Positions 3,647-48,930 of a stretch of 64,000 bases of DNA are shown in pieces. The stretch lies in contig JAFKAC010000014.1 of assembly GCA_025766275.1 (NCBI GenBank), forward strand, positions 62,001 to 126,000, read 5' to 3'. Position numbers and translations under genes: made by a program. Within the stretch, counting starts at the first letter, position 1; each line of letters starts with the position of its first letter. Below the pieces are notes generated by a model. That model was not told where the DNA came from and did no database searches. It worked only from the letters and a program-made list of their open reading frames with translations. The DNA comes from Lactarius indigo. Its lineage: Eukaryota > Basidiomycota > Agaricomycetes > Russulales > Russulaceae.

Positions 3647-6600
3647 ATGTCCAACACTGGAGATGACGCACCCGGTAAGGCGGCCTTTTATCTATGGCAC
3701 CAGAGCGCAGCTGGTTGTATGGGCCTCTGGGGTATGTTGTTCGTGTGAGAGATTTACTTACTACATTCGTGACAGCCGGGCGCTATCTACCTCAGGCCCC
3801 AGAGCCCGATGGGCTCAGCGAAGTGCAATCCACGGAATTAGCTCACCCTAGCAAGGATCTATCTCTCCCAGTAAACGGGATGTATCCCCTTCTCGATTTA
3901 ATTACGGAGCAAGGGAGCAATGGTCTCGGTAATCCTGGAACATTGTATCTATTGCGTTCGCACTCATGGTATTCAAGTCGACAAGATTGTCATTGCTCAA
4001 CATTCTCTCCAAGAATTTATCAACTCACTCTCTCCGGGTGCCTATTCCTCCATCACAAAAGTTGACTTCGAAATACTGGACAAGGTTGTTCTCAAACCAT
4101 TAGGAATCTATGGTTCGAAAGAAGAAATCGTGAGGTTTCTCCGTGAAATTGAAGCTGTTGAAGACAGCACGTACGTTTTTACTTTTTTGGAATTTGTGTG
4201 GACTAATGCTTCAGGGACAGCGCACAGAAATCACTCGCTTCACGGAACGGACAGGCGGATAGGAGTTATGAGCTATCTCTTAGATCTGGATTATATGTTG
4301 TGCGCTCATTCATGTCTACCCCCGAAGAGCAGGCCTATGTAATCTACTGGCCGGAAGATACCACTTGGGACGATGGTGCCTCTTCGCCCGTCCAGCGTAA
4401 CAGAGTGACATTCATGCGGTATGGTCGACATTTCCACGGTCTTCCATTGCTAATCAATTCGAACTACATAGATACATGAGCAAACTGTGCGATCAAATAG
4501 TGTGTTTACTCTCGAGCGAACATTCAAGGGCAGTTGCGTGGGGCGACGACAATGACGGAGCCGACAAGGATGGTAACGATGACGACAGTGACGGCACATC
4601 GACCGACTCAGAGAAAACTGACTCAAACCGATTCTATCGTTTCGAGGTAGCGAAAACAAAGGATCAAGAAGAGAATGTCGTCGTCAAAGAGGGATTCATG
4701 GTACGTTTGCCATATGACAACCCTTTACCCCTACATTGACGTCGGTTTCTGTTCGTCACAAGATGTCCTCTCCCCTGATCGTTGACCAGATTCCATCACC
4801 GGAAGTGGACGCCGACCCAAGGACCTTCCGTCCAGCACTTCTTCATGGAGAGAAGGTGCAAGGTTTCACGACAGCCACACTCGTACCGGCGAGGGCCATC
4901 ATCGAACCCTTTGCTTACGTTAATCAGACCGCTGACCAGATCAGGCTTCGTTGGTATGTTTTATAACCACTGGAGTCGAATGTTGACGAAATTGCTTCAA
5001 CAGGGAAAACGATGTCATATGTCTTGCTGAGGAGTTCGACGTCACGTTGCAGAAGCCTCTGGTCACGGCACTGGGCCTCAGTACCCGATTCCCAAATGAG
5101 TATGAAGCTTGGGAGAGAAGCGGTAACGAGATAGAGTGTCGATTCCAGCAGATCATTTCTGAGCGGAAGGCGGAGATGCATGCGAAAATCGAAGAAGATT
5201 TCGACAGTATAAGGGCCAAGATACGGGGAGCCGTTGTCAGCGAGTTGTTAAGGACGTTTCCGTGAGCTTTGACCACCCCGGCCTCGGAGTACTCATAACC
5301 GACGATAGGTCACTTCAACTTGAGAGGTTTTTACCTGAATCGATTCCTGCAGAACAGGTAGACCACGAAGCTGCCTCTCACAATGCGAAAGGTAAGGAAT
5401 CTCGACCTTCTTTCCTATCCCCCAACGGGTGGTTATAACAAAAGCAGCAGATTCGCTCCGCGACCTTTTTCGCCTTTATTCGCAAATAGAGCCAATGTTT
5501 TGGGATAGAATAAATGGAGCCGACTTCTCGGGATGCTTGAAGACCTCCGAGTTTCAGTTCAAGAAGAAGCGTTTGGTGTTCATTCAGCTTTTAGATTCGG
5601 TCTCGCAAGATGGGAGTGCGGACTTGACCCGCGTGGTAGATGCTGTCCTTAGTCAGCAGGACGAGAAGAGCGCCTTGGCAGTTCTCAAAACATTCGGAAA
5701 GGACGACAAAGGCGTCCCTTCTCGGCTACGAAGCCTCTTCAGGTTCTCAAGAGGTGAAGTGGGGTTGTGGGAAACCGCCAGAAAACGTGCATTATCGGTG
5801 TCTGATTCTCAGTTTCTTTTGGAGCTCAAGACAATTCCCATCGACGATTATCTCCACAGAGCTGCTGTTGACGTCGAGGGCACTGCTTATGCTTTCCTCA
5901 CTAAGAAGGTCGACACCTTAGTGTACGGAATAAGTCAACAGGTCCTATCAACACAAAAATCGGAATGTTCTAAGCGGGTTCAACGAGAAGAGGACGCCAA
6001 TCAGGTTCGAGAAGTGCAAATCTTGTGGTCCAATTTCGTCCGTCAAATCATGGATGTGTCTGCACAGTGCTCCAACTTGTACGTTTGATACTAGTACGAC
6101 ATCGAAACGGACTGACAACCTAGCGTGGCGCAGGCGCACAACTGTCTATCTCGACCGCTTCGAATTCCACAAATCGTCTATCGCCCATGGTTTGTTTGAA
6201 TAGTTCTCCCCGACTTGGGCGCGTCTCATCCGCTCAAATAGATGCATACTACATCAGTGGACGTCAAGAATCTGTTCGAGAAGCTGAAATAGAATATCGC
6301 ATCCATCTCCTGCACCTGCGCGCAGACGAGAGTCAAAAGGTGCAACTTGACCCATCCTACATACCAACACCCATCCTCGAGGAACGATTTACTCATTCAT
6401 TCTCTGTCTCCTCATCGACTGTCGTAAAGTATGGTCTCGGTTAATCTCATGTACCCCACACTTATCTTATCTTTGCAACTCAGATATGCTCATCTCCTTG
6501 CAGGAGGTCGAATTCTCGTGGGCCTCATCGACCCCCAGGGAAATATGGTAATCTATGTCGAGAGTCTAAGTCGAATCGGTGCTGCCATACAAAGAAGATC

Positions 6601-9600
6601 GTTTTCCAAGCTTTTACATAGGGAAAAGATTGGCGAAACTTGCCTTTTTTCCCTTGACGAATCGAAGCGCATATTAGCTGTTTGTTTACCCGCCAGGGTA
6701 TGTTTTTCATTCTGACCCCCCCCCCCCCCCCCCCCCATTTCCTCCGTGTAAAAATACTCGACAGATGGAACTCCACATCTTTGCGTTTGAAGACGAACGT
6801 GGCCCTTTGCGAGGGATGGGACCCACAATTGACCTTCTTCCGTTCTACAACAATGGTGTATCCATTATTCACGCGGCCTTCGTTCATGGTCGCGAAGAGA
6901 TCCTTTTCGTAGATTCCAGTGCTCAAGCGAGAGTTTTTTCATTGACTATGCTGCAGCCTAGGTATATGCGACTCCTTATTTTCTCTATGATCTAACTAAC
7001 ACCTTGTCATAGGCCTGCCTCTCTACAGCTACTGCAAGTTCCACGTGCGATCTACTCGTCCCCGGATGGATCATGCATGCTCGTTGTTCAAGAAAAAGAA
7101 GGCGTATCCACCTTGACCGTGACGGCGTACCATTGGACGACATTCGCTTCCACTGACGGAATTCCTATTACACTTCCTGATTTTCCTGTCGACCTTGATG
7201 CGGCGCTTCTAACCTCAGTCGTGAATCGGAACAACATCTATCTCGTCGGTCTCGACGTAACCTCGCAGACTTGTCGATCTGTCGTCCTTGATATCACGTG
7301 CAAGGCGACCGAGTTCTCGTTTCAAGAACAACGTTCGAAGGCATCTACAAGGCATCGCGGAGAGACCAGCCATAATTGCTTGATTGACTGTCATTCGGAG
7401 GTCTGGACACGTTTCCCTGTGGTAGCAACAATGGAACGGCGTACGATAACATCTTCGAGCGAGCGGCAGCAGAGGACGCTGACGTTCGTGACTGACGACG
7501 ATCAACGCCCGTTCTCGTTTTACTTCTCCGAAATGATTCGCAGTTTCACGAAGACTTCGCGTAAACCGACAGGCGATGTACTTAAAGGTATCGTCGTCTC
7601 CGCAAGGACTTTCACTTCGTTTGCGTGCGCATTCCTGTCCAGTCCGGAATGGCCAGTCTCCCGTTTCCGAGCTGGCGAATGGTTGGCCGACTTACTCTGT
7701 CTTATTCCCATCCACATTGCCGTCACACACGAAAACAGATTTGTCCCGCTCAAGGACGGAGTTCTGTCGGCACAGCTAGAAACCTCTTTGCTTGGAGCCG
7801 AAGTCAACACAATCGTAGACAGCTTGTCAATTGGATGGTATGAGTCGATTTTTCAGTCGTATTGGGCCACGAAGGTGAGTTCTTCGCATAGCAGTTGTAG
7901 GAATGGCCGTGACCATCTTTGCGGCACTCCCAGCCAGTGAAAGTTGTATCCTCAATGGGAGAACAATCCGTTGGGAAGAGCTTTACCTTGAACCATCTGG
8001 TAGACACTTCATTTGCGGGGAGTGCGATGCGTACAACAGGTTGGTTTTGGAGTGTGAGTGACTAAAGAGGATAATCGACCTTTTTTAGAGGGAGTCTGGT
8101 TGTCCGTTTCTCCTACAGATGACGCGCTTATAGTCGCGCTGGATTTCGAAGGTGGGCTTGATGCCACCTGTCGCCCGTTGTTCGGCGCTATCTGAATTAC
8201 GGCGGATGACAGGTGTACACAGTTTGGAGCGTTCGGCACAAGAGGATACCCTTCTTGTCCTTTTCAACACTGCTATATCGAATCTTGTGAGTAAACCTCT
8301 TGACCCGTGATTCTCGTTGTCGGCTGAGAGTATGCCGCGGGTAGGTTCTATTCCGAAATAACTTCACCCTCGGCAGAGATATCACTAGCCTCTTCCAGTC
8401 TTTCCAGTCAAGCACCTCCATTTTTGATCCGGCATCCAATCCATCACTCTTCCAGTCCACGCTTCTAGTCATCATTAAAGTAGGTGAATTTATTCATAAG
8501 TGGTTTCAGTACTCTTAGCTTCCATACTTCGCTAGGACGTCATTGATTCAGACGAGGCGGAAGTGACGAGAGAGTAAGATTCAAAGCTCACATGGACTTC
8601 CTTCCACTGACGTAGGCCTAGATTTTCTCTCAGGTTCCAGAGGATAGTTGAGGATGAACAAGACTCTAATTTCATCACTCGCCTTCACGCGGGGAAGTTG
8701 AATATCATCCCATGGCCGATGATCGGATCAAAAGAGTTTTACAAGCTTTTTGGTAAGGTGAAAAAGACTCTCGACAAGCAGCCGACGTCGCATCATACCG
8801 CGGGGGAATTCTTGCTAAGGCTGAAGACGTTGATGGCCAAATTGAAGGTCAGATAGAAGCAACGACACGCCTATGTGGATCACTGACTCGCGATATTCCC
8901 GATAGGCAAATGACTGGGGAACCATGTCACGTATGTTCTCCTTTTTCTAGGGCACTTTCTATCCCTCATGTCTCTTTTCAAGAAACTATGGCCATGCACC
9001 GCGCAAACTCCCTTCTTGCGATTTTACATAGTGCCTTGGAGACCGGATATTCCGAGATCGACCCCGAGCCAATCCCACTGAAGGTGCGCTTAGAATTAAA
9101 GAAGTCTTGCGTCACACTTATAAGCCTAGAACCTCGATATGGACGTTGTGATAGAAGCAGAGGATACCGAAGCGCGATTCGTTCTCACAGGGCCAGACAC
9201 CTCGATTGCCGACCATGAACGTCGACTTGCGGGTCTACGTGAGTCCTGGGACCTTACAGATCGAAGGCAACATGTAGACGACTCTGTGTGGCACTCCGAC
9301 CTTGCGCAGTACTTAACCCATCTCGTCAACCTACGGGTAGCTCATGTTGGCAGCTGGCTCAAGTCGAACATACAGCAATTCGAGGGACGTCACGCGAGTA
9401 TCGAAGAGTTACGCCGAAAGTTCAGCAATGCCGTCATAGATCTATTCACCAGCGTCGAACTCTGTCGATCCCAGTGCAGTTCCTGCAACTTGATTTGTGT
9501 CCAGAGCAGCCGTTCACACAAAGACAACCACGACTGCTCGACCAACCATAGGTGTATCCATAGTTGTGTCTTTTGCGAAAGCGACGCTCTCCCAACACAG

Positions 9601-12595
9601 CCCTGCGGTCAAAGGTACGTTTCTTCGACTCAATCCTACGACCAACTTAACTGGTATATCATGGTCACCTAGCGCTGGCCATCCAGGAAACCATATGTGA
9701 GTTCGGGACGTATCATTCTTCACGATGTTCCTCCGCCAATATCCCACTAGTTGCAAAGTGGAGACTCATCTATGCGGACGGCCTTGCGAGCTCTCAGGAT
9801 CGCGGGCTTGTACGGAGACGTGTGTCAAGGTGACCCCGCCGACTCTTAAGTTAGACGCATTCTCATGTTGGTCCCCACTAGCCAACCCAACACGAAGGTG
9901 GTCACCTCTGCTCAGCCCCGGTCCACATGTGTGGTCAGGTAGGTCTCATTTCGGTGTGGCCATTTCTGTTGATGCGAAGTTCTATAGCCGTGCCGTTTGG
10001 CTGGTTTGGTGCTTCCAAACGGAAAGTCGCTCACATGTTCTGGGACATGTTATATCCCTCTGTGAGTTATCGTAATACCATCTCTCTACAAAGAAGGCTA
10101 ACCCAGCGCCTCATCACTCAGCAATACAGAACACAAGGACCACGAGTGCGAAGACAGACAGTGCCCTGCTCAATGCCAACTATGCAACCGAATGTGCACA
10201 GGGGGTCACTTGCATGGTCTGAAATCTGCTCAAAATCACCTTTGCGGGTGCGTCTATTATTACCTCGTTTATTCTAAAGAAATGTTTAGCTTGGATCTTT
10301 AGCAAAGAACACCCTTGTAACGCCTTGTGTTCCGAGGGCATTTGCGAAATTCAAACAAAACCTCAAGCCATCGAAGCTGTCTTTGTTGGCGCACATGAAT
10401 CTTACCAATATACGAAGGTAAGCTCCCGTTTATACAAGGGGCCGCGATAACCTAAATCGCGCCTAGTATACGCAAGGTTTGTTCCCTGAATGCACCATGT
10501 TCCCCTTTCACTGGACATTGTTCTAGTTTCGAAGCACCTCCCCTGTTCCAAGGTAATCGTGGCTGGAGAGATTGAGCACACAGGCCCCCACACCCATAGC
10601 AATGACAGCGAGTCCTTCCATTATTGTGATAGTCGGTGAGTCACGTGCACCATGTCCCTTGCAGATGTTTACTAGCTGTAGGTGTGAGAGTTGCGGTTAT
10701 CTGTGCACGCTTCCTTTTGGTTTGGCTTCAACAATCTAGTTCCATTTTCTGAAAGTAACATGAACGCAGGACATCATCAGCAAGAACACGAAACCAGCCA
10801 CGGATCCATGACGCAAGCGAGGTGGGCTTTCGAAGATCCTGACGGGACGAGCTTCGAAATCGAAGGACGCAAATTTTCGTCAAACGACGAAGGGGGGCCA
10901 ATGCTGTGCAATATGGTGTGCAAATCTATGGGAAGACATGTACATGTCGACATTTGCCGCGGTTTCGATTCACATAATTCCAAAACTCGGCACATCACCG
11001 AGAGATTATCTCCTAACCCTGATCAACCCAAAGACTGGATCACGCACGCACTCCATTGGCTTCGAATGGGTAGGTTCATCATGATTACCTTGACCGACAT
11101 CGCTTATGTTATCACCAGGTTTCAGAGGTGATTGGAGACCACGGTTCCACCCGGTATTGGTTTATTCAATATCTTTCTGCAGATCCGTACCCTCGAGAAG
11201 ATCAAGTATATTTCGCAAAGTGGTATGCCGACTACTTCTGAATTCTTATAATACGCTGTCTAATGCGTTCACGACAGTGATGTACTGTGTCCGGGTAATA
11301 CCTTTTCATTGCGCGGTTTTTCGTTGTCTTGATTACGATTTGCGAAGATCCCGAACACACCACCGAAGTTGGTGGGACCAGTGCACAGCCGTCGAGCTGC
11401 ACGCTGCCAATGTTCCACGTACCTTTAAGTACCAAAGATTCGTCTCCTGGTCCCGGATATGTATCGAACGACGGTCACCACTTTAGCTGCAAAAACCCCG
11501 CGCTCCTCCAGCCATCCTTCCATGTGTGAGTGGTCTGTCTCTGATTTCCGTCGTAAATATTCAAATCATAACAGGATATTTGTCATTGACAAGTGCGTAT
11601 CCCGTGTATTCATTAATGTTTGTCCCGACGCTTTGGATACAGGTCTGGATCCATGGCGTGGGCGGATCAATCACCACTCCCCAACTCCCCTGGGTCTAAT
11701 CTTATCAGATCGAGGGCAAACAACAGACTTGGGGCGGTCTTCTCGTCGCTTTACAGCTTTTGGATCGCCCGGCAGGCTACATTTGACCGCGTAGGACAGT
11801 CGCGCGGCGGATTTAGGAAGGACGCATACAGCTTGATCCTGTTCGATTCCGCACCTACAACCTGTTTCGAGAACGATTTCACCAGCTCTCCTGAGGATCT
11901 GTTGAGAGAGGTCTTGAAATATGAGGCTGGGGGCGATACGGACTTCACGTCGGCACTCAAGACGACACAGGCTATCATGACTTCGCACTGGAGTAACGAA
12001 AGGTACGGACCTCTGCTGCCCATAAACATATTTTGTACAGTTTATCTGAGACGCTGATGGGAATCGTAGAACGCCTGTTGTGATTTTCTTGTCCGATGGT
12101 TGGAGCGAAATTAGCGATGAATGTATCTATGACATCTGTCGCGCTTCCTCAAGCCGAGGGTTTGTTCACTACCACTCTCCAACGATAGATAATGAATGAC
12201 GCAAACTCCAGGAAACCACTTGTGTTACATGCTATTGCCTTTGGACAAAGTTTTATACCTTCTGCATTGTCCTACGTGGTCAGGAGGATCCCTCGCCACT
12301 CCTCGCTCACTAGGATGGTCGACGTCGCCCAAGAAGTACAGAAGACTGTGCCGGAGGGTGTGCTGACGGTCAACATTCCTTCTTCTTTCACTACAGCTCT
12401 TGACCCGGTGAGGAATCAAATAGATTGTGGCCCGCAGGAATGTGACACTGACTTAACTAGGTTTTCCTGACGACGACGTTCCAAGGGTTTGCTGAGTCGC
12501 TGGCGAAACCGCGTGGCAATCTGCTTTCCTCACGTTCCGTTGGAAAATCTTCCGGAAATGATCAGCTGGTGAGGATTTCGGGAGATTCACACTAG
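3647..12595 (+). CDS. Giant VLIG/GBP-like GTPase with Cys/His-rich region and C-terminal VWA domain (copy 1)
   Basis: Multi-intron gene starting MSNTGDDAPG at 3,647 and ending at the TAG at 12,595; summed exons suggest roughly 2,300-2,400 residues (estimate). In order: a novel N-terminal region (3,790-4,400); an acidic Asp/Ser linker (about 4,540-4,630); a coiled-coil-like stretch (5,090-5,230); a helical region (5,450-6,080); blade-like segments resembling a beta-propeller (6,480-7,160); then the GTPase. P-loop GEQSVGKS is at 7,958-7,981, followed by a switch threonine in RTTEGVW (about 8,040-8,110), a DFEG G3 motif (about 8,145) and an IKD motif in the place of the GBP/atlastin RD motif (about 8,475). 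A Cys/His-rich region reminiscent of NF-X1 zinc fingers spans about 9,470-11,060. The VWA domain runs 11,575-12,420 with an intact MIDAS (D-K-S-G-S; Asp at 11,588, SGS at 11,644) and FLSDG. The family assignment rests on motif order, not on a search. Probable role: nucleotide-dependent large GTPase with metal-dependent adhesion or binding; substrate unknown. Confidence 0.78.
6716..6736 (+). repeat. Poly-C run of 21 in an intron of GTPase gene 1
   Basis: Uninterrupted C21 inside the intron that separates the CLPAR and MELHIFAF exons. The corresponding introns of copies 2 (about 21,353-21,403) and 3 (about 44,125-44,177) have ordinary mixed sequence, so the run arose in copy 1 only. It may be a mutation hotspot or partly a sequencing artefact. 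Confidence 0.9.
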
Positions 12596-15596: not shown

Positions 15597-15599
15597 CCA

Positions 15600-18304: not shown

Positions 18305-21300
18305 ATGTTCAACACTGGGCACGACGCACCTGGTACGATGGCATGCTATCTACACCATCAGGGTGCATTGTCTGACTTAATATCTCCAGGTTCAGCCGAT
18401 GGCAAGAGCCTCCACAGTCCGCTCCTTGTGAGAGATTTACTGACTACATTTGCGGCAGCCGGACGCTACCAGCCTCGACCCCCTGAGCCCGATCTGTCTC
18501 GCCCAGTAAATGGAATGTATCCCCTTCTCGATTTAATCACAGAGCAAGGAAGCAGCGGTCTCGGTAATCCCTGTTCTTTACATCAGTTATGCCTACGCTC
18601 ATATGACATCAGTGGACAAGATTGTCGTCGCTCAACGATCTCTCCAAGAATTTATCAATGCGCTCTCCCCGGGTGCATATTCTTCCATCACAAAAGTCAA
18701 CTTCAAAATGTTGGATAACGTTGTTCTCAAGCCATTCGGAATCTATGGTTCAAAAGAAGAGATCGTTAGGTTTCTCGGTGAAATAAAAGCTGTAGATGAC
18801 AGCACGTACGTTCTCTACTTTTATTTTTTGGTATTTGGGTGGTCTAACGCCTCAGACAGCGCGCATGAATTGCTCGTGTCACGGAATGGGCAGGCAGCTG
18901 GGAGCTCTGAGCCAGTTCTGAGATCAGGACTATATATTGTGCGCTCATTCGTGTCCACCTCCGAAGAGCAAGCATATGTGGTCTACTGGCCGGAAGATAC
19001 CACGTGGGACGACCGTGCGGCCTCGCCCGTCCAGCGTAACAGAGTGACATTCATGCGGTGCGGTCAACTTTCTCGCCGTCTTCCGAGCCTATTCCTAATC
19101 TATCGGATCTACTTAGATACCTGAGCAAGCTATGCGATCAACTAGTTTGTTTGCTTTCGACTGAACATTCAAGGGCAATTGTGTGGAGTGAGGACGATGA
19201 TGGAACTGACAAGGATGATGACGACGACGACGACAGCGACGGCGCACCGACCGACTCGGAGAAAGCTGACTCGAGCCGTGTCTATCATTTCAAGGTGGAA
19301 AAAACCAAGGATCAAGAAGAGAACGTCGTTGTCCGAGCAGGATTTACGGTACGCTTACCATGTGACAACAGACTTCCCCTAAACTAATCCCTGCATGTCA
19401 CAAGATGACGTCTCCCCTTATTGTTGATCAATCACTCCCACAGGGAGTGGACGCAGACCCAAGGGCCTTTTATCCAGTGCTTCTTCATGGGGAGAAGGTG
19501 CAAGGTTTCATGACGACCACATTCGTGCCAGCGAGGACGATCGTTGAGCCATTTGCTCACGATTACCAGACTGCTGACCAGATTAGGCTTCGTTTGTAAG
19601 TCTCGTTGCCTTTTGGGTCTACATCTTGATAGAATCGCCTTGTCAGGGGAAAAGAGGTTGTGTTATGTCTTTCCGAGAAATTCGACAGCGCATCGCTGAA
19701 GTCCTTGCTTACGGCATTGGGCCTGAGGACCCGATTCCCGAAAGAATACGAAGCTTGGGAGAGAAGCAAGAGTGAGATAGAGCGTCGATTCCAGCAAATC
19801 ATTTCACAACGGAAAGCGGAGGTACATGCGAAAATCGAACAAGACTTTGAAGGAATACGCGTCAAAGTGCAGAGGGCCGTTATCGGCGAATTGTTAAAGA
19901 CATTTCCGTAAGCACCGGCTACCCCTCGGAGTGTCAACCCCCTCATAACCGACGCCAGGTCGCTTCGACGTGAAGTCTTTTTACCTGAATCGAGTTCTGC
20001 CGAACCGACGGACCCCAAAGGTGACTCTAACGATGCGGAAAGTAAGATTATCGATCTCCTTTCTCGTTCCCCGGCGGGTGATTCTAACGTATGCCGTAGA
20101 TTCGCTTCGCGACCTTTTCCTCCTTTACCCACGCGTGGAGCAGATATTGTGGGGAAATATACGTGGAGCCGACTTCGGCAAATACTTGAGGGCCTCCGAA
20201 TTTCAGTTCAAGAAGAAACGTATGATGTTCCTTCACCTGCTGAATTCAGACTCGCAAGACGGAAATGGTCCAAGTCCGGACTTGACCCGGTCCGTAGCAG
20301 ATGCTGTCCTCGGTCAGCAGGACGAGAGGAGCGCCTTGGCAGTTCTCGAAGCATTTGGAAAGGACGACAAAGGCATCTTTTCGTGGCTACAAAGTCTCTT
20401 TAAGTCGTCACGAGGAAAAGAGGGTTTGTGGGAAAGCGCCAGTAGACGTGCGTCGTCGGTATCAGATTCTCAGTTCCTTTCGGAGCTCAAGACCATCCCT
20501 GTCGATGATTATCTACACGAAGCTGCCACTGACGTCGAGGGAACTGCCTACGCATTACTCACAAAACAGGTCGAGACCTTGGTATCTGGAGTTAGTCGGC
20601 AGATCATTTCAACGCAAGAAAAGGAATGTGACAAGCAAATTCAACGAAAAGCGGAAACAGAGGAGGCTAGAGAGGTACAAATGCTATGGTCCAAGTTCGT
20701 CCACCAAGTTAAGGACGTATCTGCACAGCGCTCCACGTCGTACGTCTCCGATTGTATCCAAATGGGCTAGCGCTGATAACCTCGTGGTGCAGGCGCACAG
20801 TTGTCTACGTCGACCACTTCAAAGTCAGGAAATCGACCTTTTCCCGGGGTTTGTTTGAATAGTTGTCTCCAACCTGGGCGTGTCTCATCCGCCTAAACAG
20901 ATACTTACTACATCAGTGGCCGTCAGGAGTCTCTCAAAGAAGATGAGATAGAATATCGCATTCATCTCTTGCGCCTGCGCGCAGACGAGAGCCAGAAAGT
21001 GCAACTCGATCCATCATACGTACCGACACCCATCCTTGAGGGACGGCTTACACATTCGTTCCGTGTCTCCTCATCGACTGTCGTCAAGTATAGTCTTTGC
21101 TAATCCCGTCTCTCCTACACTCATCCTTGCTACTCAGATATGTTCATCTCCTTGAAGGAGGACGAATGCTCTTGGGTCTCGTCGACTCTCATGGGAATAT
21201 CGTAATCTATGTCGAGAGTCTAAGTCGCATCGATGCTGCCATCCAAGGACGATCGTTTGCGAGGGTCTTCCACCGGGACAAGATTGGCGAAACGTGCCTT

Positions 21301-24300
21301 TTCACCCTCGACGAGTCGAAGCGCATGTTAGCTGTCTATTCATCCGCTAGGGTGCGTCTTTCGTTCTGATCGTCTCTTCTCTTATGTAATAATTGCTCGA
21401 TAGATGCAGCTCCATATCTTTGCGTTCGAGGACGAGCGGGGATCCTTGCGAGGGATAGGATCCGCGATTGACCTTGCTCCTTTCTATAGCAATGGAGTGT
21501 CCATTGTTCACGCGGCCTTCGTTCATGGTCGTGAAGAAATACTATTCGTGGATTCCAGTGCTCAAGCGAGAGTCTTTTCCTTGACCATGCTACAGCCTAA
21601 GTATATGCGACTCTTTACCTTTCCTCTATGGTATTTCTGACGCCCGATTGCAGACCTGCCTCTCTACAGCTACCACAGGTGCCACGAGCGATCTACTCTT
21701 CCCCAGATGGGTCATGTGCGCTAGTAGTTCAAGAAAAAGAAGGCGTATCCACCATGACGGCGTACCATTGGACGACATTCGCTTACACAGACGGAATTCC
21801 TATCACACTTCCTAATTTTCCTGTCGACCTTGATACGGCGCTTCTCACCTCAGTCGTGAATCGGAATAACATTCATCTCATCGGTCTCGACGTAACCTCA
21901 CAAACTTGCCGATCTGTTGTTCTTGATATCACGTGCAAAGCGACCGAGTTCTCGTTTCAAGAACAGCGTTCGAAGGCACCAACGAGCCATGGAAAAGAGA
22001 CGGTTCATAACTGCTTGATTGATTGCCACTCTGACGTCTGGACACGTTTCCCTGTGGTAGCAGCAGTGAAGCGGCGTACGATAACATCTTCGAGCGAACG
22101 GCAGCCGAGGACGCTGACTTTCGTGACTGACGACGATCAACGCCCGTTCTCGTTTTACTTTTCCGAAATGATTCGCAATTTTATGAAGACTTCGCGTAAG
22201 CCGACAGGCGATGTACTCAAAGGTATTACTGTCTCAGCACGGACCTTCACTTCATTTGCACGCGCATTCTTTTCCAGCCCGGATTGGTCGGTATCCCGCT
22301 TCCGAGCTGGCGAATGGCTGGCAGACTTACTCTGTCTTATTCCCATCCACATTGCCGTCACACACGAGAACAGATTTGTCCCGCTCAAGGATGGCATTCT
22401 GTCGGCACAACTGGAGATCTCGTTGCTTGGAGCTGAAGTCAACAGAATCGTGGACAGCTTGTCAATTGGATGGTATGAGTCGATATTTCAGTCGTATTGG
22501 GCCTCGAAAGTAAGTTCTCCACATCGTAGTCATAGTAATGGCCCTGACCCTCTTGCGGTAACCCCAGCCAGTGAAAGTTGTATCCTCAATGGGGGAACAA
22601 TCCGTTGGGAAGAGCTTTACCTTGAACCACCTAGTAGACACTTCATTCGCGGGGAGTGCGATGCGTACCACAGGTTGGTTTTTGGAGTACTCGTGATTTA
22701 AGATAATAATCGACCTTTTTCAGAGGGAGTCTGGTTATCCGTTTCTCCTACCGACGATGCGCTTATAGTCACGCTGGATTTCGAAGGTTGGCTTGATGTC
22801 GACTATTTCCCGTCGTTCGTTCGGTCTGGATAACGGCGAACAACAGGTGTACACAGTTTGGAGCGTTCGGCGCAAGAGGATACCCTTCTTGTTCTTTTCA
22901 ATACTGCAATATCGAACCTTGTAAGCGAATATATTCACTTGTGGTCCTCATTGTTGTGCTGAGAGTGCGCCGTGGGTAGGTTCTATTCCGAAATAACTTC
23001 GCCCTGAGTAGAGATATTACCGGTCTCTTCCAGTCCTTCCAGTCCAGCGCTTCGATTTTGGATCCGGCGTCCAATCCGTCACTCTTCCAGTCCACGCTTC
23101 TAGTCATCATCAAAGTAAGTGAACTCCGTTATAATGACACCACTATAATCTCCCCGCCATTCTAGGATGTCATTGATTCAGATGAGGCCGAAGTGACGAA
23201 AGAGTAAGTCTCAATGCGCGCGTAGTCCTCCTTCCACTAATGGAGGCCTAGATTTTCGCTCAAGTTCCAGAAGATTGTCGAGGACGAACAAGACTCTAAT
23301 TTCATCACTCGTCTTCACGCGGGGAATTTGAAGATCATCCCGTGGCCGGTGATCGAGTCAAAGGAATTCTACCAGCTTTTCAGGAAGGTTAAAAAGGCTC
23401 TCGACCAGCAACCGACGTCGCATCATACTGCGGGGGAGTTTTTGTTGACCCTGAAGACGCTCATGGCCAAATTGAAGGTTTGAACTACGCAATTACACGC
23501 GTATGTAAATCGCTGACCTGCGATATTCCCGATAGGCAAACGACTGGGGAGCTATGTCACGTATGTTCGTCTAGCCTTAATAGACTCGCCTCCCCTCATG
23601 TCTTTTGTCTTTATTTCAGAAACTATGGCTATGCACCGCGCGAATTCTCTTCTTGCGATCTTGCCTAATGCCTTGGAGACCGGATTTTCCGAGATCGGCC
23701 CCGAGCCAGTTCCGCTGAAGGTACGTTTAGAATCAAAGATACCTTGCGTCAGACTAAGAAGTTTAGAACTTCGATACGGATGTTGTGATCGAAGCGGAAG
23801 ATACCGAAGCACGATTCATTCTCACAGGGCCAGATACTCCAGTTACTGACCATGAAGGTCGGCTGGCGACTCTACGTGAACTCTGGGATCTGGCCCATCA
23901 AGGGCAACACTTCGACGACTCTACGTGGCACTCCCACCTTGTGCAATACTTAACTCACCTTGTCGACCTGCGGGTAGCTCATGTCCAGAGTTGGCTCGAC
24001 TCCAACGTCGAGCGATTCGAAGGCAGTCACGCAAGTATCGAAGAGTTACGCCGAACATTCGACAACGCTGTCATAGATCTACGTGCCAGCATCGAACTCT
24101 GTCGGTCGCAGTGTGGATCTTGCAATTTGGTTTGTGTGCGAAGCAGCCGTCTGCACAGAGACGGCCACGACTGCTTGACGAACCATAAATGTATTCATGA
24201 CTGTACCTTCTGTGAACGGGACGCCCTCCCTACACAACCCTGCGGCCAAACGTACGTTCGTCCGCATTCCTTGTCAACGCTTCTGACATATTGCAATACC

Positions 24301-38400: not shown

Positions 38401-40818
38401 CAAGAGTCTTCATCGGCGCCATCAACAATGACAATCAGACTCGAACACGTAGACAGGACGCCTTGTTGATCGTCATCCCATCGCCAATCTTTATTCAGTG
38501 CCGGTATCCAGTCTAGGGCCCCGTCGAAGTCGAGCGCAAGAACTTCAGCAAGCTCCTCCACACGGAGCGGCCGAGTTGCCACAGTGAGACATTGTAATAG
38601 CCGATGAGCTTGATGCGGGTTGACCTTCCCAATTTCTTTCAACATCCGTTCGTATGTCTCGTCTAAAGATTTCGGCAGTTCTTTAAGGACGCTCCGGACA
38701 TTCTGCGGCAGGCAATTTCGCAATGTTTCCAACTGACAGAAGACCCACCGGAACCTGTTAAGTACAATGAACAAGTGTCACGATCGCCCTGCGGATATGC
38801 TCTTACATTCCGTCAGCTCTTTCTGAGAGTGTCTCAATCACATGTTCTTTGTCCTCTTGCCTCCATCTCTTCATGAATTTACCCGACCCAGAGTAGACCA
38901 CAGATCTGACATAGTCCGCGATGTCCTTCTTTTGCCCACTTTCGTCTTGAAGGAAAACTGTCTGAGATGCGAGTGATTCAAGTACATTAGTGATGTCGAC
39001 CTCCGGACGACTCGTGGCACAGATATGAAGACTAGGGACTCGAAGGCCGACAAGGTCCTTCAAAACATCAAGGAGCTGTTCGCGGGGGGATGGGACATCG
39101 GATGTGTCGGGACATTCGTCAAGGGCATCCATGATAAGATAAACCGGGCCTTGATCTGGAAGCGTGAGCATCTCCTTGAGGCATTGCAACAAAACGCTGT
39201 CACTGGGCTGACGCGCGCCGTCGTCATGTGCCTTATAGAGGCGGGAGAGTATGTCGCAAAAATTAGCAGAACAATTGGAAAGTTGGGTGAGAAATGAAGA
39301 AAGCAGGTTGCGACGTGCTTGCTTGTTGGTATCCCGAAAATCAAAGTAAAAATATGCCATCGAAGCCGATCTGTCCCTGCACAGGGTTGTGATATCGTTG
39401 ATTATGGCGGAGCTAGTCAACGATAGTAAGATTTCCAAAATTGAAGGGATCGAGTGAAACGAACCACAGGACGCTTTTCCCGGACCCGGCTGCGAAACCA
39501 GTACGGTCCATAAGATCTCACAGGAGCCACCGCAAGTGAAAGAGGCTTACGTTTCCCATGTATCCACAGCAGGGAACCAACAGCCTTCCATTCCCCGAAT
39601 TTGTCGTCTTTAATGAACCATTCAGCTGTTCCCTCGTGTTGACGATCGCTTGCGAAGTTGTGGTTTGTGGATGGATCTGGGGGAGATTGCCATCTCCTGA
39701 GCCTCTCTCGTAATTGGATCCCTGCGCGATGGTGTCAGGTTCTCGACTATCAGCGAACACAGGACTGGTTACGAACGCATCAAGTCGTCCACGTTGTCGG
39801 CAGTTTGTTGCACGATCAATTTCGCTCCTATTGCTGTTTCCATTATTTCCTTGTCGCCTAGACGGTGAAGAGCTTAGAGGGAGGCCTTCGACAGCTGATC
39901 ACATGTTTCACACCATCGATGATTACTTGCACCTTTTTGTCAACGCCTTCCACGCTGTCGGCGACGGCCGTCACCTCGTTATGGATGTCGTGGGTAATCT
40001 TCAGGAGCTGTGCACTCGCCAATAGAGACTCTTCGTTTGTCAGTTTATCGAGCTTCTTTAGCCCATCCTCCAGATCCGTCTGCCCCGTCACCCTCTTTAC
40101 AAATTTTTCTAAATCAAGATGAGTACGGAGAAGAGTATGTGACGGGCGGACTCACTCGCCCGACTCTCTCCCATCTCCTTCGTGGCAGTCGCAAGTATAT
40201 CCAATACCTCAACCGTTATCTCCACCATTTTATCAGTCATCGCCGGAGTCAGGGGGACCCCGGTATAAATCTCAAGTCGACTGAAGAAACTATGAATACG
40301 TCCAAAGATGTCGACGAGGATATCTTGGCTCGCAGCGACATCTTTAGCTGCCTGAGAACGCTCAGCATCACGAGAGTCCGCACGACGAAATAAACTAGGC
40401 TACTCACCAAGAGGAGGACACCAACGCCAGCAAAAACTACTTTCGCCGGTGCGAATATCTGCCGAATCGACATCAGAGTGAGAACACTGGCAGGTGGGTT
40501 GATATTTACCAAACCGACACCTTCGCCGAGAGTCGTGGAGAAGGCATAAAGAACATTGACGGTTGGCAAGAACCATTTTTTCAACGTGTCGCCAATCAAG
40601 GACGGACCAAACTGATCGGCCTGAAACGCGGCCAGAATGGCGCTAGGAGAATCGCATTTTTCGAGCTGTTTGAAGAGATCATGCTGCTTTAGATCTTGCT
40701 TGGTCTTTTTCTCGTATGACTTGAGAGCGGTGTCGAAGATGGCTTCGATATTGGAAGGTGATGCTGTCGTCGCTGCAAGGGTCTGGGACATAGAACCAGA
40801 AGCAGGAGGTCGACTCAT
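35405..40818 (-). CDS. NLR-like STAND protein: Goodbye domain - NACHT - ankyrin repeats (copy 1)
   Basis: Read from 40,818 leftward, starting MSRPPASGSMSQ. The N-terminal domain (DTALKSYEKKTKQDLKQHDLFKQLEKC) matches the fungal STAND N-terminal Goodbye type. A short hydrophobic stretch (VFAGVGVLLL) and helices to about 39,860 follow. NACHT comes next: Walker A GSGKS at 39,473-39,487, Walker B LIMDALDE near 39,120 and sensor TSRPEVDI near 39,000. A winged-helix-like region (38,770-38,000) precedes roughly two dozen 33-residue ankyrin repeats (37,880-35,405, many STPLHLASS). The stop is at 35,405. The array is cut by introns near 36,961-37,070 and 36,575-36,640. An apparent 2-nt shift near 39,740 disappears once an intron (gttcgt...gcgcag) is removed, so the gene looks intact. 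Family role: NTP-driven signalling switch in fungal non-self recognition; ligand unknown. Confidence 0.85.
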
Positions 40819-41210: not shown

Positions 41211-44200
41211 ATGTCGTCGAGTTTCCGCCGTCTCTCTACTCAGTCGTCCACAGCGGAGAAGAGCGGCATGGCGAAGGTTCAACCGACCTCACCGCCAGTG
41301 GATCCGTCTTGTCCCATCAATGGGATGTATCGCCTCCTCGATACGATCGCGGAGCAAGGGAGCAGCGGCTCTGGTAGTTTTCATTCGTCGAAGTTTACCT
41401 CGTACTCACCGTGTCCCTAAGTTGATAAGATCGTCATCGCCCAAGATTCGCTCCAGGCCTTTACCAATGCCCTCTCCCCAGGTGCTTATTCATCTATCAC
41501 GAAGATTAACTTCAAGATATTGGACGATTTGTTACTCAAGCCCATCGGTGTCTACGGATCGAGAGAAGAAATTGTGAGGTTCCTTCGTGAAATGGGTGCC
41601 ATAGATGTCGAAATGTGCGTCTATCCTTCGATACATTGCAGAATGCTTAGTATGTCGAGTCCATAGGGCATCGGAATTGCTCGTTTCGCAACGTGCCTAC
41701 TGGGCCAGGGGAGCTGAACCCATTCTGAGATCGGGGTTGTACATCATACGAACGTTCACATCTACCGCAGAAGAACAAACTTATGTTTTGTATTGGCCAG
41801 AAGATACAACTTGGGACGACAACGCGGTCTCAACGGTCCAGCGTAATAGGGTTACGTTCATGAGGTATGGATCGGTTTCGCGCCACCTTTGTTCCAGAAT
41901 AACGTGATACGTGTAGATACCTCACCAAGTTATGCGATCAACTTGTTTGCCTGCTTTCGGCTCAACACTCACAAGCGATTGTGTGGGGAGACGAGGTCGA
42001 CGATATGGACGACGCATCAATCGACTCGGAGAATGACGACTCTGACCGACTTTACGACTTTATGGTTACGGAAACGAGTGAACAAGAAGAGAATGTTATT
42101 GCTCGCCAAGGATTTACGGTGCGGTGCCCCATAACCGATGTCTTCCCTCCGTGTTGACACAATAACCACTTGTTGCAAGATGAACTCTTCACGTCTTGTC
42201 AACCAACCTCCGCCACCCAACATGCACATAGACCCGAGTATTTTATCTCCCAGGTTGCTTTATGGGGAAACAACACAAGGTTTCATGACTGCCGATTTCC
42301 GGCCGGCGACGGTCGAGCCATTTGCTCTCGATCATCAGAGCGCTTCCCAGATTCGTCTCCTTTTGTAAGCGTCTTCTGGTTATTATATTTTTTGTGAGCT
42401 TCGAATTGAAGGAATTACACTCTAGCGAAGATGACGCTGTGTTGTGTCTCTCCGAGACCCTCGAAGACAAGGCAGTGAAGACCCTGATGCGTCTGGGCCT
42501 GAGTACTCGGTTCCCGGAAGAGTACGAGGCTTGGGAAAGAAGGAGGGTCGAGATAGAGAAACGTTTCCAAAAAATCCTCTCCCGGCGACAAGCAGAAGTC
42601 TACGCAAATCTCGAACAAAATTCCGGAGACATACGAGCGAAGGTACGAGAATCTGTGATTGGTGAAATTTTGAGAGCTTTTCCGTGAGCATTGTCCATGA
42701 TGTATTTGCGTTCGTCATCGAGTGAACTAACGCTTGACATCTTTCAGAATACTGCGGCGTGATGGCTTCTCTTCTGAATCAAGATCCGCCAACTCGATCG
42801 ACTCTGGCGAAGCACCAGGTAAGTCCAACTGCCACACATCAGGCGTCATCCTCACGCGGAGCATAGGCACACTCCAAGATCTATTTTCCATTTATCCGAA
42901 GGCGGCGCAAACGTTTCGAGGTTCCATACGTGCCGCAAATCTTGACAAGCGCATCAAGTCAGCAGACTTTCAGCTCAAAAAGGAGCGGCTGCTAATATTG
43001 TACTATCTTCTCGAGAATTACGAGGGTTTGAGCGAAAGTCAGACCCGCTCCCTAGGAGATGCTGTCCTTGTCGGCAGGGATAAGCAAAAAACGCTAGGGC
43101 TCCTCGAGAGTTTCGCGAAGGGAGAAAAGGCCGGCCGGTTCTCGGTACCCCGGGGGAGCAATAATTCTCCGCTTTCAAGAGAAGAAGCGATGTGGAGATC
43201 TGCCAATAATTATGCAACGACAATTACTGACTCGCGTTTCCTCTCACAAATTAAAACCATTCCTAACAGCGACTTTTTACACGATGCCGCTGTCGAGTGC
43301 GAGGAGACCGCATATGATTGTCTCACAACGCAGCTCGATTCTCTGGTGTCTGAAATTAGTCAGCAAATCCTTTCAACGCAGAAAGACGAATGTGACAGGC
43401 AGGTGCAACGGGAAGTGAAGAGCGAAGAGGAAAAGGAACTCAAGGTATCCCGGGCCGAGTTTGTCCAGCAAATAGAAGATTTATGCCGAGAGCGTTCCAG
43501 ATCGTGAGTTGCTTATACTCCGTAGGTCGGGTATTTGTCTCACGTTGCGCAGGCCTAATAGTATCTACATCGACGACTTCAGGATGAAGAAAGAGCACCA
43601 GTATGCCTCGGGTCTGTTTGGTTTCCTTGTTGAACGGAGAGCCTATCCTCATATTCGGCTAGATTCGTACTTTATCAGCGGCAAAAAAGAAACTCTGCAA
43701 AACCAAGAGGTCGAATACAAGATCCATATCTTACGCCTGCTTGCCGACCAAAAACACAACCTGCAGCTCGACCCTTCTTATGTTCCGATCCCAGTCCTCA
43801 ACGAACGACTTTCTCAGTCTTTTCATGTCCCCTCAGAGACCGTCGTAAAGTGCGTAATTGGTTCGTACTGCTGATAACACTCCTTACCCTCGCTCATTTA
43901 GATACGCGCATCTCCTCGAAGGAGACCGAATTCTCTTGGGCCTCGTCGATGCTCAGGGAAACGTGATGATTCTCCTCGACCGTCTCAGTCGCATCGATGC
44001 CGCCATCCAATCCCGATCGTATGCTAAGTTCTTCCATCAATTCCATCAGGACAAAATCGGTCAAACATGCCTCATCGCCTTTGACGAGTCGAAGCGTATG
44101 TTGGCTATTTACGCATCCGCCAGAGTATGTCCTTTCTTATACTTATGTCTTGCGCCCGTGAGACAGACGTATCATAGATGCGACTCCATATCTTCGTATT

Positions 44201-47200
44201 CGACGAGGAGCTCAAGTCTTTGCGGGGACTTGGGACTCCAGTTGACCTATTACCGTTCTATAATTCTGGAGCATCCATCACGCATGTGCGTTTCGTCCAC
44301 AGGAGCGAAGAGATACTCTTTGTAGATTCGAACGCATGGGCGAGGGTCTTCTCTCTAGTCACGCTACGGCCCAAGTATTTTCCTCCTATCCTCGTTTCTC
44401 ATCCTATACTGACGTCTCATTATAGACCCGCTTCTCTGCAATTACCCCAGATACCACGCGCGATCTACTCTGCCCCAGATGGATTATGTGTTCTCATCGT
44501 CCAAGGTGAAGGTGAAGAACGTACAATAACAGCTTATCACTGGTCTGCATTCACGGCCACCTGTGGAATCTCCGTTACACTCCCCAACTTCCCTGTCGAT
44601 CTGGACGCGGCGCTTCTCACTTCGATCGTCGATCGGAACAACATCCACTTTGTCGGTCTTGACCTAAATTCTCAAACTTGTCGATCTGTTGTTCTCGACA
44701 TCACTCAGAAAGCCACCGAGTTCACATTCCAAGAACGGCGACGGCGATTGAAAGCATCATCACTTCATATCGAACAGACGACCCACAACTGTCTGATCGA
44801 TTGCCATGGTGACATCTGGACACGCTTCCCCGTTGTCTCAGTGGCAAAACGACATATCATAACATCTTCCAGCCAGCGGCGGCAGAAAACGCTGATCTTC
44901 GTCACTGACGACCACCGGCGTCCTTTTTCTTCCCATTTTTCCCATATCATCTCCACCTTCGAAAAGACTTCGTGCAAGCCAACTGGTGACGAAATCAAGA
45001 ATATCGTGGTGTCCGCACAGCCTTTTTCCTCTTTTACGAGGCAATTCCTATCCACCCCGGACTGGCCGGTCTCGCTCTTCAGAGCTGGCGAGTGGCTAGC
45101 AGATTTTCTATGCCTCATCCCCATCCATATTGCCGTCACTCATAAGAACAGATTCGTTCCGCTAAAGGATGGCGTTATGTCAGCTCAGCTGGATAATTTC
45201 TTACTCGGCGCCGAAGTGAACAGAATTGTAGACAGTCTATCTCTCGGGTGGTACGAGTCGATTTTCCAGTCCTATTGGGCCTCAAAGGTAAGACGTTCAA
45301 TCCGTGTTACCAGGAACGACCCTGACCAGACAACTTGCCTTGATGTTAGCCAGTGAAGGTTGTGTCGTCAATGGGAGAGCAGTCTGTCGGGAAAAGCTTC
45401 ACCCTAAATCATCTGGTAGACACATCTTTTGCAGGAAGCGCAATGCGAACAACAGGTTTGTTTCGATCGTTTACGATTCGAAAATAAACAATACTGAGCG
45501 AATTTAGATGGTGTCTGGATGTCTGTTTCGCCTACGGAGGATGCGCTTATAGTAGCACTGGATTTCGAAGGTGGGCTCGAATACACCATCCCCCATCGAT
45601 TTAAAATCACCACAAGTCCCACCCCCAACAGGCGTCCACAGTCTCGAGCGTTCAGCCCAAGAGGATACTCTTCTCGTTCTTTTCAATACCGCAATTTCGA
45701 ATCTCGTCAGTGAACTGTTATACCGTCGTCACTACGCTCTCGATCTCACAGTAACTCTAGGTTCTATTTCGTAACAACTTGGCTTATAGTAGAGATATCA
45801 GCGGCCTCTTCCGGCCCTTCCAGTCCAGTTCATCTGTATTAGGTCCGGCATCCAACCCATCGCTCTTCCAATCCACACTTGTAGTCATTATCGAGGTGCG
45901 AACGCCTGCAGTTGTTTGGGGGTGATATGGTCCCTCATGTAACCCATATAGGATGTCATTGACTCGGACAAAATTGAAGTGACGAGAAAGTAAGCGTATA
46001 ATTTCTTCTGTTACGCTCTTCTCCCCCGCTAAATGCATCTAGGTTCGCTCTCAAATTCCAGAAGATCGTTCAAGATGAGCAAGACGCTAACTTCATCACC
46101 CGCCTTCATGCGGGGAAGTTGCAAATCATCCCGTGGCCGGCAATAGAGTCGAGAGAATTTTATAGACTTTTCTCTACTGTCAAAAAGAAACTTGACCAAC
46201 AGAGAACGTCACACAACACCGCCAGCGAGTTCTTGCATACGCTGAAGACGTTGATGGCAAAGTTGAAGGTCCGTTCAATTATTAATCCGCCGAATCTCGC
46301 CAATTGACTGGAGCTCCATGCGTACCGATAGGCAAACGACTGGGGAGCCATTTCGCGTATGTTCTCATGTTCTAGCGGTCGCTCTCTTCTCAGAGTCTAT
46401 TTTAGAAAATATGGCCACGCATCGCGCGAGTTCTCTCCTCGAAATCTTGCCAATTGCTTTGGAGACCGGATACTCTGAAGTAGTCCCTGATCTTGTGCCT
46501 CTCAAGGTGAGCATGAAATTAGAAGCGGGAAAGTCTGCTTGAGGACGTTAGGATGTCTACACGGATCTTGTGATCGAAGCGGAAGACACCAGAGCCCGAT
46601 TCCTGCTCATTGGGATAGCTGCCGATCGCGAGCATCGTCTTGCAGTTCTGCGTAATTCTTGGCACCGGTTTGGATCCCGGAAACGCGCCGTCGACTCGGA
46701 ATGGATCTCCGACCTTGTGCAGTACCTGACTCATCTCGTTGACCTACGTGTTGCTCGCGTCGATAAGTGGCTGAAGTCCAATATGCAACGCTTCCAGACC
46801 GAGCACGCAAGCGTCGAAAAGTTACGCCGAGCGTTTAACAGCGCAGTGATAGACCTCTATGCCAGCATCCAGCTCTGCAAGTCTAAATGCGCCACCTGTA
46901 ACCTGTTTTGCACACAGAGCCATTTACACGAAGGCGACCACGACTGCCAAACGAGTCACGAGTGCATTCACGATTGTACCTTCTGCGACGAAGATGTGAG
47001 ACTTTGCGGTCAGCCGTAGGTCCACCCAACCTGCGTTCGACGATAGCCCGTTCTAACTTAACACCGCCTTTCAGTTCGGGTCATTCCGGAGATCATGTGT
47101 AGGTTTTGGGGAATCCATCACTTCTTCACCACTGCTCACCTGATCCATCGCGCGCTAGGTGCCATGTAGACGCTCACCTGTGCGGACAGCCTTGCGGACT

Positions 47201-48930
47201 TTCTCGGAAGCGGGACTGTGCTGACAAGTGTATTAAGGTGACTCTCCGCTCCTGCTGGTTCGCTCAGTCTAATTTCCAATCGCCCATAGCCGGTCTCGCA
47301 CGAAGGTAACCACGTTTGTTCTGTACCGGTCCATGTGTGTGGGAAAGTACGTGTCAGCAGAACGGTCTTCTGAATCTAAACTCAAGTATGCCCCTAGCCA
47401 TGCGATTTAGTTAACCTGCAGTTGCCGAAAGAGAAGCCATTTACGTGTTCTGGGATATGTCGCGTCCCAATGTGAGTTGAATCAACCCGAGTGGTCAATT
47501 CTGACAGAATATTGCTTAGATTCGAGGAGCACACGGTCCACGCGTGTGAAAATAGACTCTGCCCGATCTCATGTCGATTGTGCAAGCGATTGTGCAGCGG
47601 AGACCACTTGCACGGCCTATCTCGTAGTGAGAATCATTTTTGCGGGTATGCCCACCGCTTCGTTCCCTCTACCACGCTTTACTTGTACCTCTAGCCAGGA
47701 ACACCCGTGTAGCGCTTTGTGTTCTGCTCCAGGTATATGCCAGGTCGAGACGACCCCGCTGTCCCCAGAAGCTACGTTTTCCCCGAGGCCCGAAGCCTTT
47801 CAGTACACCAAGGTAAGCACGTGTCAATTGAAACAATCACGTCGATATTTCATAGAGGCAACTAGTATTCTCAAGGTGCGTAATCCCGGACGTTATCTTA
47901 GCCTTCTAACGGAACGTCGCCTCAGCCGCTAAGCGTCTCCCTTGCGTCAAAGTAATTGAACCTTGGAAGGTCGAGCACCGAGGACCTCACGTTCATAGCA
48001 ACGAAGAGCAGCCATTCCACTTCTGTGAGAGCAGGTAAGCCAGGGATATGGCCCCACATTTGGAAGTGCTTATCCGTTTTTCAGGTGCGAGACTTGTGGC
48101 TATCTCTGCATACTTCCTTCGGGTTCGGCATCGAGTTCCTTCTTCGTTCCTCGCTAACTCGAGTTTAGGTCATTCCCAACAAGAACACGAAACCCACCAC
48201 GGGGTTATGTCACGTACACGATGTGTTATCGATGGCATAGAGGGGAATGGCCTTGAGTTGGACGGACGTAATTTCTCATTGAAAGACGACAGTGCCCCGA
48301 TGCTGTGCAATCTGGCATGCACGTCGATGGGAAGACACGTGCATGTCGACTACTGTCGCGGTGATCACCATGAAAATCCCGAAGTGCTGCATATTACCGA
48401 GAAAATTGACCCAAACCCCTGCCAACCAAAGGATTGGATCACACACGGCCTTCACTGGCGCCGCATGGGTGCGTTCGTCTTGGCGTTCGTCCTGCGAACG
48501 TTATAGTTAGTCTTACACATGGTATTTCTCAGGTTTCAAAGGTAATAAAAGCAACAATTCTGTGGGATATTTCGAGGCTTATCCGGCTCTGTAGATCCCT
48601 ATTCTCGAGAAGATCAAGTGAACTTTGCGAAGTGGTAAGTGCGCCAGCTTCGTACTCACGTGGAGCCTCGCTTAATGCTTCCTTAACAGCGACGCCGTGT
48701 GCCCAGGTAATGGTTCCCTTCATGTATTTCCAGAGCTAAATTCCATTCAACAAGGGCTCGAACATACCATCGAAGTGGGTGGGGCTAACGCGCAGCCCTC
48801 CCACTGCACGCTGCCGATGTTCCATCCGGTTGCGAATGCCGCGGATGCGCCTGCTGGTATTGGATACGTGTCGAACGACGGACATCAATTCAGCTGCAAC
48901 AACCCTATAGTAACGCAGCAAGCATGTTAA
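41211..48930 (+). CDS. Giant VLIG/GBP-like GTPase, copy 3, truncated before the VWA domain
   Basis: Starts MSSSFRRLSTQSS at 41,211, with an N-terminus unlike copies 1 and 2, then rejoins them at PINGMYRLLDTIAEQGSSG. All later blocks are present and open: the VDKIVIAQ exon, a shorter acidic linker (about 41,995-42,050), the coiled-coil-like region (42,500-42,640), the helical and propeller-like regions, and the GTPase with P-loop GEQSVGKS at 45,374-45,397, a retained G3 DFEG motif and a changed IED in place of IKD. The Cys/His region (46,880-48,460) is also kept. The frame ends ...TQQAC at 48,930, just before the strand that carries the MIDAS in copies 1 and 2. It is more diverged from copies 1 and 2 than they are from each other. 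It may still make a GTPase-zinc protein without VWA; alternatively it is an early pseudogene. Confidence 0.72.

Follow-up and report, generated by a model that had tools for sequence, protein, structure and literature searches.

Three related genes on the + strand, spanning positions 3647-48930 of a 64,000-nucleotide stretch of Lactarius indigo DNA (assembly GCA_025766275.1, contig JAFKAC010000014.1, positions 62,001 to 126,000; hereafter the window), encode giant multidomain proteins that are almost certainly members of an old fungal family of single-chain proteins with a GTP-binding (G) domain of the GBP/atlastin/VLIG type. The reading we prefer adds a function to this membership, namely that the proteins form a cytosolic, GTP-driven scaffold on a target that they recognise, with a probable role in cell-autonomous defence or nonself recognition, and we give it a probability of roughly one half. 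Defence or nonself recognition is likely to be a better account of the family than housekeeping. An initial annotation of the window, made from its letters, had reported three such genes on this strand, and all three are present, with the frame of copy 3 ending at the very position given as the end. An N-terminal domain and a predicted beta-propeller with a helical insert, both absent from that annotation, were also found.

The G domain lies at 7689..8914 in copy 1, 22324..23544 in copy 2 and 45102..46340 in copy 3 (all +), and its P-loop reads GEQSVGKS in every copy, at 7958-7981, 22592-22615 and 45374-45397, respectively. The second motif (G2) is RTTEGVW except in copy 3, where it is RTTDGVW; the T-x-E-G-V-W given by the initial annotation is exact in the first two copies. 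DFEG is in place in all three copies, as is the IKD/IED motif (G4), found as IIKD in the first two and as IIED in the third. Neither N-K-x-D nor T-K-x-D occurs downstream of the P-loop in any of the three gene models, in agreement with the earlier remark that the usual N-K-x-D was not seen. The domain is central in the chain (residues 1087-1365 of 2184), with a Cys/His-rich region and a VWA domain downstream. Directly behind it lies a helical bundle, which in copy 1 (8915..9453, +) aligns with the first helices of GBP1/Sey1 and in copy 2 (23545..24090, +) was placed by structure alignment.

The assignment of the G domain to the GBP/atlastin/VLIG group, as first proposed, is supported by Pfam and PDB profile matches together with the predicted fold. 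In Agaricomycete members, RHD3 (PF05879) is the best or level Pfam match at 27-37 bits, with GBP (PF02263) at 20-27 bits and URGCP (PF25683, the VLIG model) at 15-26 bits where shown. URGCP scores highest in six of seven deep-branching full-length members, at 34-41 bits (Rhizophagus, Geosiphon, Ambispora, Diversispora, Endogone and a chytrid), and in the Basidiobolus member RHD3 has 31.6 bits versus 28.9 for URGCP; the profile scores hint at a VLIG kinship at the root of the family. The URGCP cut-off of 55 bits is reached by none of the members with a score shown, the highest being Rhizophagus P0199 at 43.3 bits and the others falling at 14.9-41.3. A precomputed Pfam column names PF25683 for many proteins, including P0249 (41.3 bits), which is not a cut-off test. 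For GBP, with a cut-off of 21.1 bits, P0051 (23.1), P0069 (26.0) and P0049 (24.9) lie above and P0001 (19.9) below. RHD3 gives at most 37.4 bits where shown, under its cut-off of 42.4, and its best E-value of 5.9e-11, among shorter relatives, comes without bits. Dynamin/Mx (PF00350) gives 13.2-14.6 bits at best where shown, below its cut-off of 27. Among 60 shorter relatives scanned at E<=1, RHD3 was matched in 47, GBP in 46 and URGCP in 43. Taken over the family as a whole, these scores file the G domain in none of GBP, atlastin/Sey1 or VLIG.

Using a family profile against PDB chains, GBP2 was retrieved first (E 4e-4), followed by Sey1 (E 0.007). The initial annotation had offered the predicted fold of the P-loop region as a check on its claim, and structure prediction returns a GBP-type G domain, with Sey1 and atlastin among the best fold matches in Foldseek and VIA-align; the latter re-examines Foldseek's own list, so that families absent there are not thereby excluded. 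A genome search with the GBP Pfam model gave no match, and the control genomes were equally blank, which makes this search uninformative.

Three protein searches, listing the best 120 of 605, 120 of 120 and 120 of 224 matches, were employed to follow the family. All listed matches with an organism shown are fungi, from Agaricomycetes, Tilletiopsis, Glomeromycota, Endogonales (Mucoromycota), Basidiobolus (Basidiobolomycota) and Phlyctochytrium (Chytridiomycota); absence of ascomycetes or non-fungi among the matches listed proves nothing. The third search contributed at least 118 further relatives, 64 of them of at least 2,000 residues. All 64 long relatives match the profiles of the main propeller part, G domain, helical bundle and Cys/His region, and most also match those of the N-terminal domain (63), the block before the G domain (62), the VWA domain (59) and the first propeller part (56). 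In the chytrid member the first propeller part and the insert are both unrecognised. The family alignment, restricted to members longer than 2,050 residues, has 110 rows (107 public proteins and the three window copies). A G-domain tree of fungal members sets the Basidiomycota apart from the remainder, with very long rows for Phlyctochytrium and Tilletiopsis. The search pattern fitted 18 stretches in the prokaryotic collection and 31 in the viral one, none of them encoding a relative.

In databases, members are named hypothetical, 'VWFA domain-containing' or 'VLIG-type G domain-containing'. Five proteins from Rhizoctonia and Ceratobasidium (P0147, P0152, P0180, P0187 and P0189) are named 'cytochrome P450 family protein' or 'Vacuolar protein sorting-associated protein 13A'; the annotations behind these names appear to be wrong or fused. 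P0243 from Scutellospora calospora bears histidine-kinase Pfam domains and is possibly a mis-joined gene model. A literature search, with most subscription papers and preprints outside its reach, turned up no paper on the family. This is a known superfamily in an undescribed layout, and a family rather than a local oddity.

The structures of copies 1 and 2 were obtained with a gene finder and then with a protein-guided model, the guide being the L. hatsudake protein P0001. Copy 1 (3647..12595, +; about 2,180 residues, 2,183 in the model) has 41 modelled exons at 3739-12532, a stop at 12593-12595 and 76.6% identity to P0001. Its 5' end is uncertain, as the first modelled exon begins at 3739 and use of the ATG at 3647 requires an extra intron. 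Copy 2 (18305..27128, +; 2,170 residues) has 41 modelled exons at 18319-27122, a TAA stop at 27126-27128 and 92.6% identity to P0001, its ATG at 18305 being the choice of the first gene finder. Both copies have 40 introns, all GT-AG and 45-115 bases long. Copy 3 (41241..48930, +; 60.5% identity to P0001) runs through the Cys/His region to an in-frame stop at 48928-48930, which is shared by its allele L010, and has no intact VWA. An Rfam scan of the window gave no match.

The proposal that G domain, Cys/His region and VWA share one chain is borne out by these models, in which copies 1 and 2 each have their G-domain and VWA exons joined in-frame without a stop or frameshift, and by many single annotated proteins from Basidiomycota, Glomeromycota, Endogonales, Basidiobolus and a chytrid. 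It is this range of annotated chains that makes it very improbable that the G-domain and VWA exons sit on different transcripts and that their fusion is a modelling artefact, even though copy 3 stops before the VWA, so that the parts are separable, and the splice models are guided by, and hence dependent on, annotated proteins. Three L. indigo proteins used as guides, P0089, P0081 and P0074, match loci L013, L023 and L027 with an identity of 1.00 (rounded); the annotated chains are encoded at those loci, with splicing not independently derived.

Upstream of the G domain, structure models predict an N-terminal alpha/beta domain at 3880..4571 in copy 1 (AlphaFold2 (AF2) model m2870bfbcfaa7) and 18515..19219 in copy 2, both on the + strand. 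A beta-propeller is predicted behind it. In copy 1 it extends overall over 4638..7331 (+), in two parts at 4638-4939 and 6080-7331 that enclose a helical/coiled-coil insert at 4940-6067; in copy 2 it extends over 19286..21966 (+), with parts at 19286-19581 and 20741-21966 and a helical insert at 19582-20728. The main propeller part of copy 3 was mapped on the gene at 43603..44741 (+).

The Cys/His-rich region, delimited by conserved Cys/His columns at 9454..11502 in copy 1 and 24091..26135 in copy 2 and mapped on the gene at 46867..48909 in copy 3 (all +), has 71 Cys/His positions conserved across 80% or more of the 107 family members compared; its structure is modelled at low confidence. The initial annotation had called this region NF-X1-like, an identity that is not supported, as no NF-X1 finger model was among the Pfam matches examined (E<=1 in 4 full-length members, E<=0.1 in 10 more, and 60 members at E<=1, with 25 of 31 matched families listed for these 60). 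Scans of four proteins with NCBIfam and PADLOC yielded nothing of use. No RING or other ligase family was among the Pfam matches shown. This result bears on a quality-control or ubiquitin machine, in which the Cys/His region would read ubiquitin or act as a zinc-dependent ligase, with the VWA as an Rpn10-like dock and the GTPase as a motor. We consider such a machine unlikely, given the lack of a ligase family among those matches, the low-confidence model of the Cys/His region and the fact that a shared VWA fold is silent on function.

The VWA domain, whose identity is borne out by profile and predicted fold, lies at 11509..12532 in copy 1 and 26142..27122 in copy 2 (both +). Of the two complete metal ion-dependent adhesion sites (MIDAS) first reported, the one in copy 1 (DKSGS/T/D) stood, but in copy 2 the threonine is replaced by glutamate. 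This threonine is present in 83 of 109 family rows; glutamate takes its place in copy 2 and loci L001-L007, where the P-loop is still GEQSVGKS, and in L006 and L007 the first MIDAS aspartate is gone as well. The VWA was also said to be limited to copies 1 and 2, and it is intact only there, but copy 3 keeps weak fragments behind its stop, overall at 49127..49702 (+; about 49127-49258 and 49622-49702, by profile in one frame). These score 24.9 and 13.0 bits, whereas in copies 1 and 2 the best VWA exons reach 172 and 189 bits. L010, the allele of copy 3 on the other haplotype, has the same last residues and the same stop and is followed by similar VWA fragments.

In the assembly (90.3 Mb, 291 contigs), one propeller/pre-G exon had 46 genome matches and one Cys/His exon had 33, of which 32 were nearly full length, and the family occupies 32 places, some broken. 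Pairs such as copy 2 and L001, with a synonymous divergence (dS) of 0.03, suggest that the assembly carries both haplotypes; each haplotype would then hold about half of the 32. The 29 loci beyond the window comprise 18 full-length open models, L010, which stops before the VWA, and 10 with at least one stop or frameshift, an approximate count, with L011 cut by a contig end and L025 and L026 fitting poorly (50%). The ratio of nonsynonymous to synonymous substitution (dN/dS) among the window copies over residues 45-1945 is 0.11-0.17, which indicates that the genes are real beyond chance, and 0.04-0.07 in the G core. Across loci, dN/dS is 0.06 for the G domain, 0.24 for the VWA and 0.37 for the helical insert (37-52 of 55 pairs per domain used, pairs with saturated or near-zero dS left out). 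Selection, on these estimates, is purifying, with the G core strongly constrained. Copies 1 and 2 differ by a dS of 0.39-0.69 through residue 1515 and 1.26-1.54 in the Cys/His region and VWA, a mosaic from residue 1516 that suggests exchange between the tandem copies. L004, the other haplotype at the place of copy 1, encodes a protein only 75% identical (dS 0.78) and nearer copy 2; in its flank, 358 of 768 bases match the window beside copy 1 at 91% and the remainder is unaligned. Such deeply divergent alleles were found at copy 1's locus, unlike those of copies 2 and 3. The turnover of copies and the divergence between alleles speak for recognition of something that varies.

NOD-like receptor (NLR)-like genes neighbour the family genes on the - strand. 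Two combine NACHT (NPHP3_N) and ankyrin exons, at 35405-39546 (NACHT 38.8-39.5 kb, ankyrin 35.4-38.8 kb) and 54105-56926 (NACHT 56.3-56.9 kb, ankyrin 54.1-56.3 kb); the third, at 60031-63517, has ankyrin exons at 60.0-63.5 kb, with NACHT not seen in the exons tested. The NLR-like neighbours also give a weak winged-helix match. The neighbours that the initial annotation found notable are real, but NLRs are too common in this genome for adjacency to count: there are 1,175 first-look candidates of the same NACHT family, and all 150 that were scored matched. Copy 2 is followed by two tandem genes for sedolisin-like proteases (pro-kumamolisin, S53; 28276-30553 and 32412-34721, +) and copy 3 by one (49929-51766, +). 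The same protease family adjoins GTPase relatives on contigs C226 and C25, and protease and GTPase may have duplicated together.

Divergent alleles at copy 1's locus, many copies and losses, and NLRs adjoining family genes would also fit a family devoted to nonself recognition in hyphal incompatibility and not to antimicrobial defence; the accessible part of one study links NLRs to fungal nonself recognition (PMC4986451). This narrower role is rather improbable in our view: the alleles come from one locus in one genome, positive selection was not seen and the G core is nearly invariant, and NLRs are everywhere in the genome.

To place the family, it was compared with known systems. VLIG/GVIN/URGCP proteins are likewise giant, with the G domain far from the N-terminus, and PF25683 is the best G-domain match in the six deep members named above and in Rhizophagus P0199. 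Human GVIN1 has two predicted G domains (PMC11974893, accessible sections), whereas the fungal proteins have one G-domain stretch each, and a propeller, Cys/His region and VWA, which the fungal family has, are not described for GVIN1 in those sections. GBPs share the G-domain fold, as predicted, but have an N-terminal G domain followed only by a long helical stalk, in contrast to the central G domain followed by Cys/His region and VWA in the fungal family; the C-terminal lipid-anchor cysteine of GBPs is lacking in copies 1 and 2. RNF112 is a single protein with a GBP/atlastin-type GTPase that takes Foldseek ranks 2-5; it is a RING protein with membrane segments, and we know of no propeller or VWA in it. 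Bacterial conflict systems pair a switch NTPase with a vWA (MoxR-vWA and GTPase versions; PMC7159879, PMC8195603, as far as these texts were accessible), the same pairing idea, but as separate proteins with AAA+ or other GTPases. They would be analogous only, with no prokaryotic relative of the fungal G domain found. The fungal Mx-like MxF proteins are large GTPases for which a past role in defence has been proposed (PMC11789081, in part); they belong to the dynamin/Mx lineage, and the terms GBP, guanylate and VLIG gave no match in the searchable part of that paper.

The RHD3/Sey1/atlastin family (PF05879) requires separate attention, as a housekeeping membrane-traffic GTPase related to it, shaping or tethering internal membranes, would account for the best or level RHD3 scores in Agaricomycete members, for Sey1 and atlastin among the top fold matches and for the wide distribution in fungi. 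The fungal scores shown stay below the family cut-off, and the layout is very different. Against the housekeeping role, neither copy 1 nor copy 2 has a segment hydrophobic enough to form a membrane hairpin, the best 19-residue Kyte-Doolittle mean being 1.65, inside the VWA. About 32 places in an assembly of two haplotypes, together with broken members and divergent alleles, would also be unusual for such a gene. We regard this role as improbable, somewhat more so than a ubiquitin machine.

In the GTP-driven scaffold that we prefer, the G heads would bind GTP and pair in the GTP-bound state by analogy with GBPs, the N-terminal domain, propeller, Cys/His region and VWA would bind targets or partners, and GTP would convert a resting form into an oligomer or coat. 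Candidate targets would be a microbe, a virus or a foreign nucleus. GTP-dependent pairing and assembly are known for GBPs and modelled for GVIN1 (PMC11974893, accessible sections; PMC12133148), and the G-domain fold, near-invariant GTP motifs and long helices of the fungal family fit such behaviour. The propeller, Cys/His region and VWA are probably binding modules, judging by their kind. A bolder version, which we hold only tentatively, is that fungi from chytrids to mushrooms possess their own GVIN1-like giant-GTPase defence, cell-autonomous in kind, that reads a foreign target through the propeller, Cys/His region and VWA, builds a GTP-driven coat and undergoes immune-like turnover of copy number and alleles.

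Several observations weigh against a scaffold of this kind. No positive selection was detected, the top 30-codon window among loci without a stop or frameshift having a dN/dS of 0.64, and this, together with the wide spread, calls for caution on recognition; the distribution from chytrids to mushrooms fits a housekeeping role as well. Of the 64 long relatives, only 32 show a recognisable helical insert, a fast-changing part of the chain. The altered MIDAS of copy 2 and its near paralogues implies that metal-dependent VWA binding is not general, and nearby NLRs, expected from their abundance, are near worthless as evidence of defence. A P-loop arginine finger is a feature of GBPs, but the GBP2 P-loop GLYRTGKS aligns with GEQSCGKS of Rhizophagus P0199, arginine being replaced by serine, and copies 1-3 have GEQSVGKS; catalysis would therefore differ from that of GBPs.

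To our knowledge, most descriptions of antimicrobial giant GTPases come from vertebrates. A fungal family of this kind, conserved and combining a related G domain with other modules, would point to a greater age and variety of such machines. Little is known of intracellular defence in mushrooms, which would gain a testable candidate, and the member found in Schizophyllum commune (P0347) brings the question within reach of a laboratory species.

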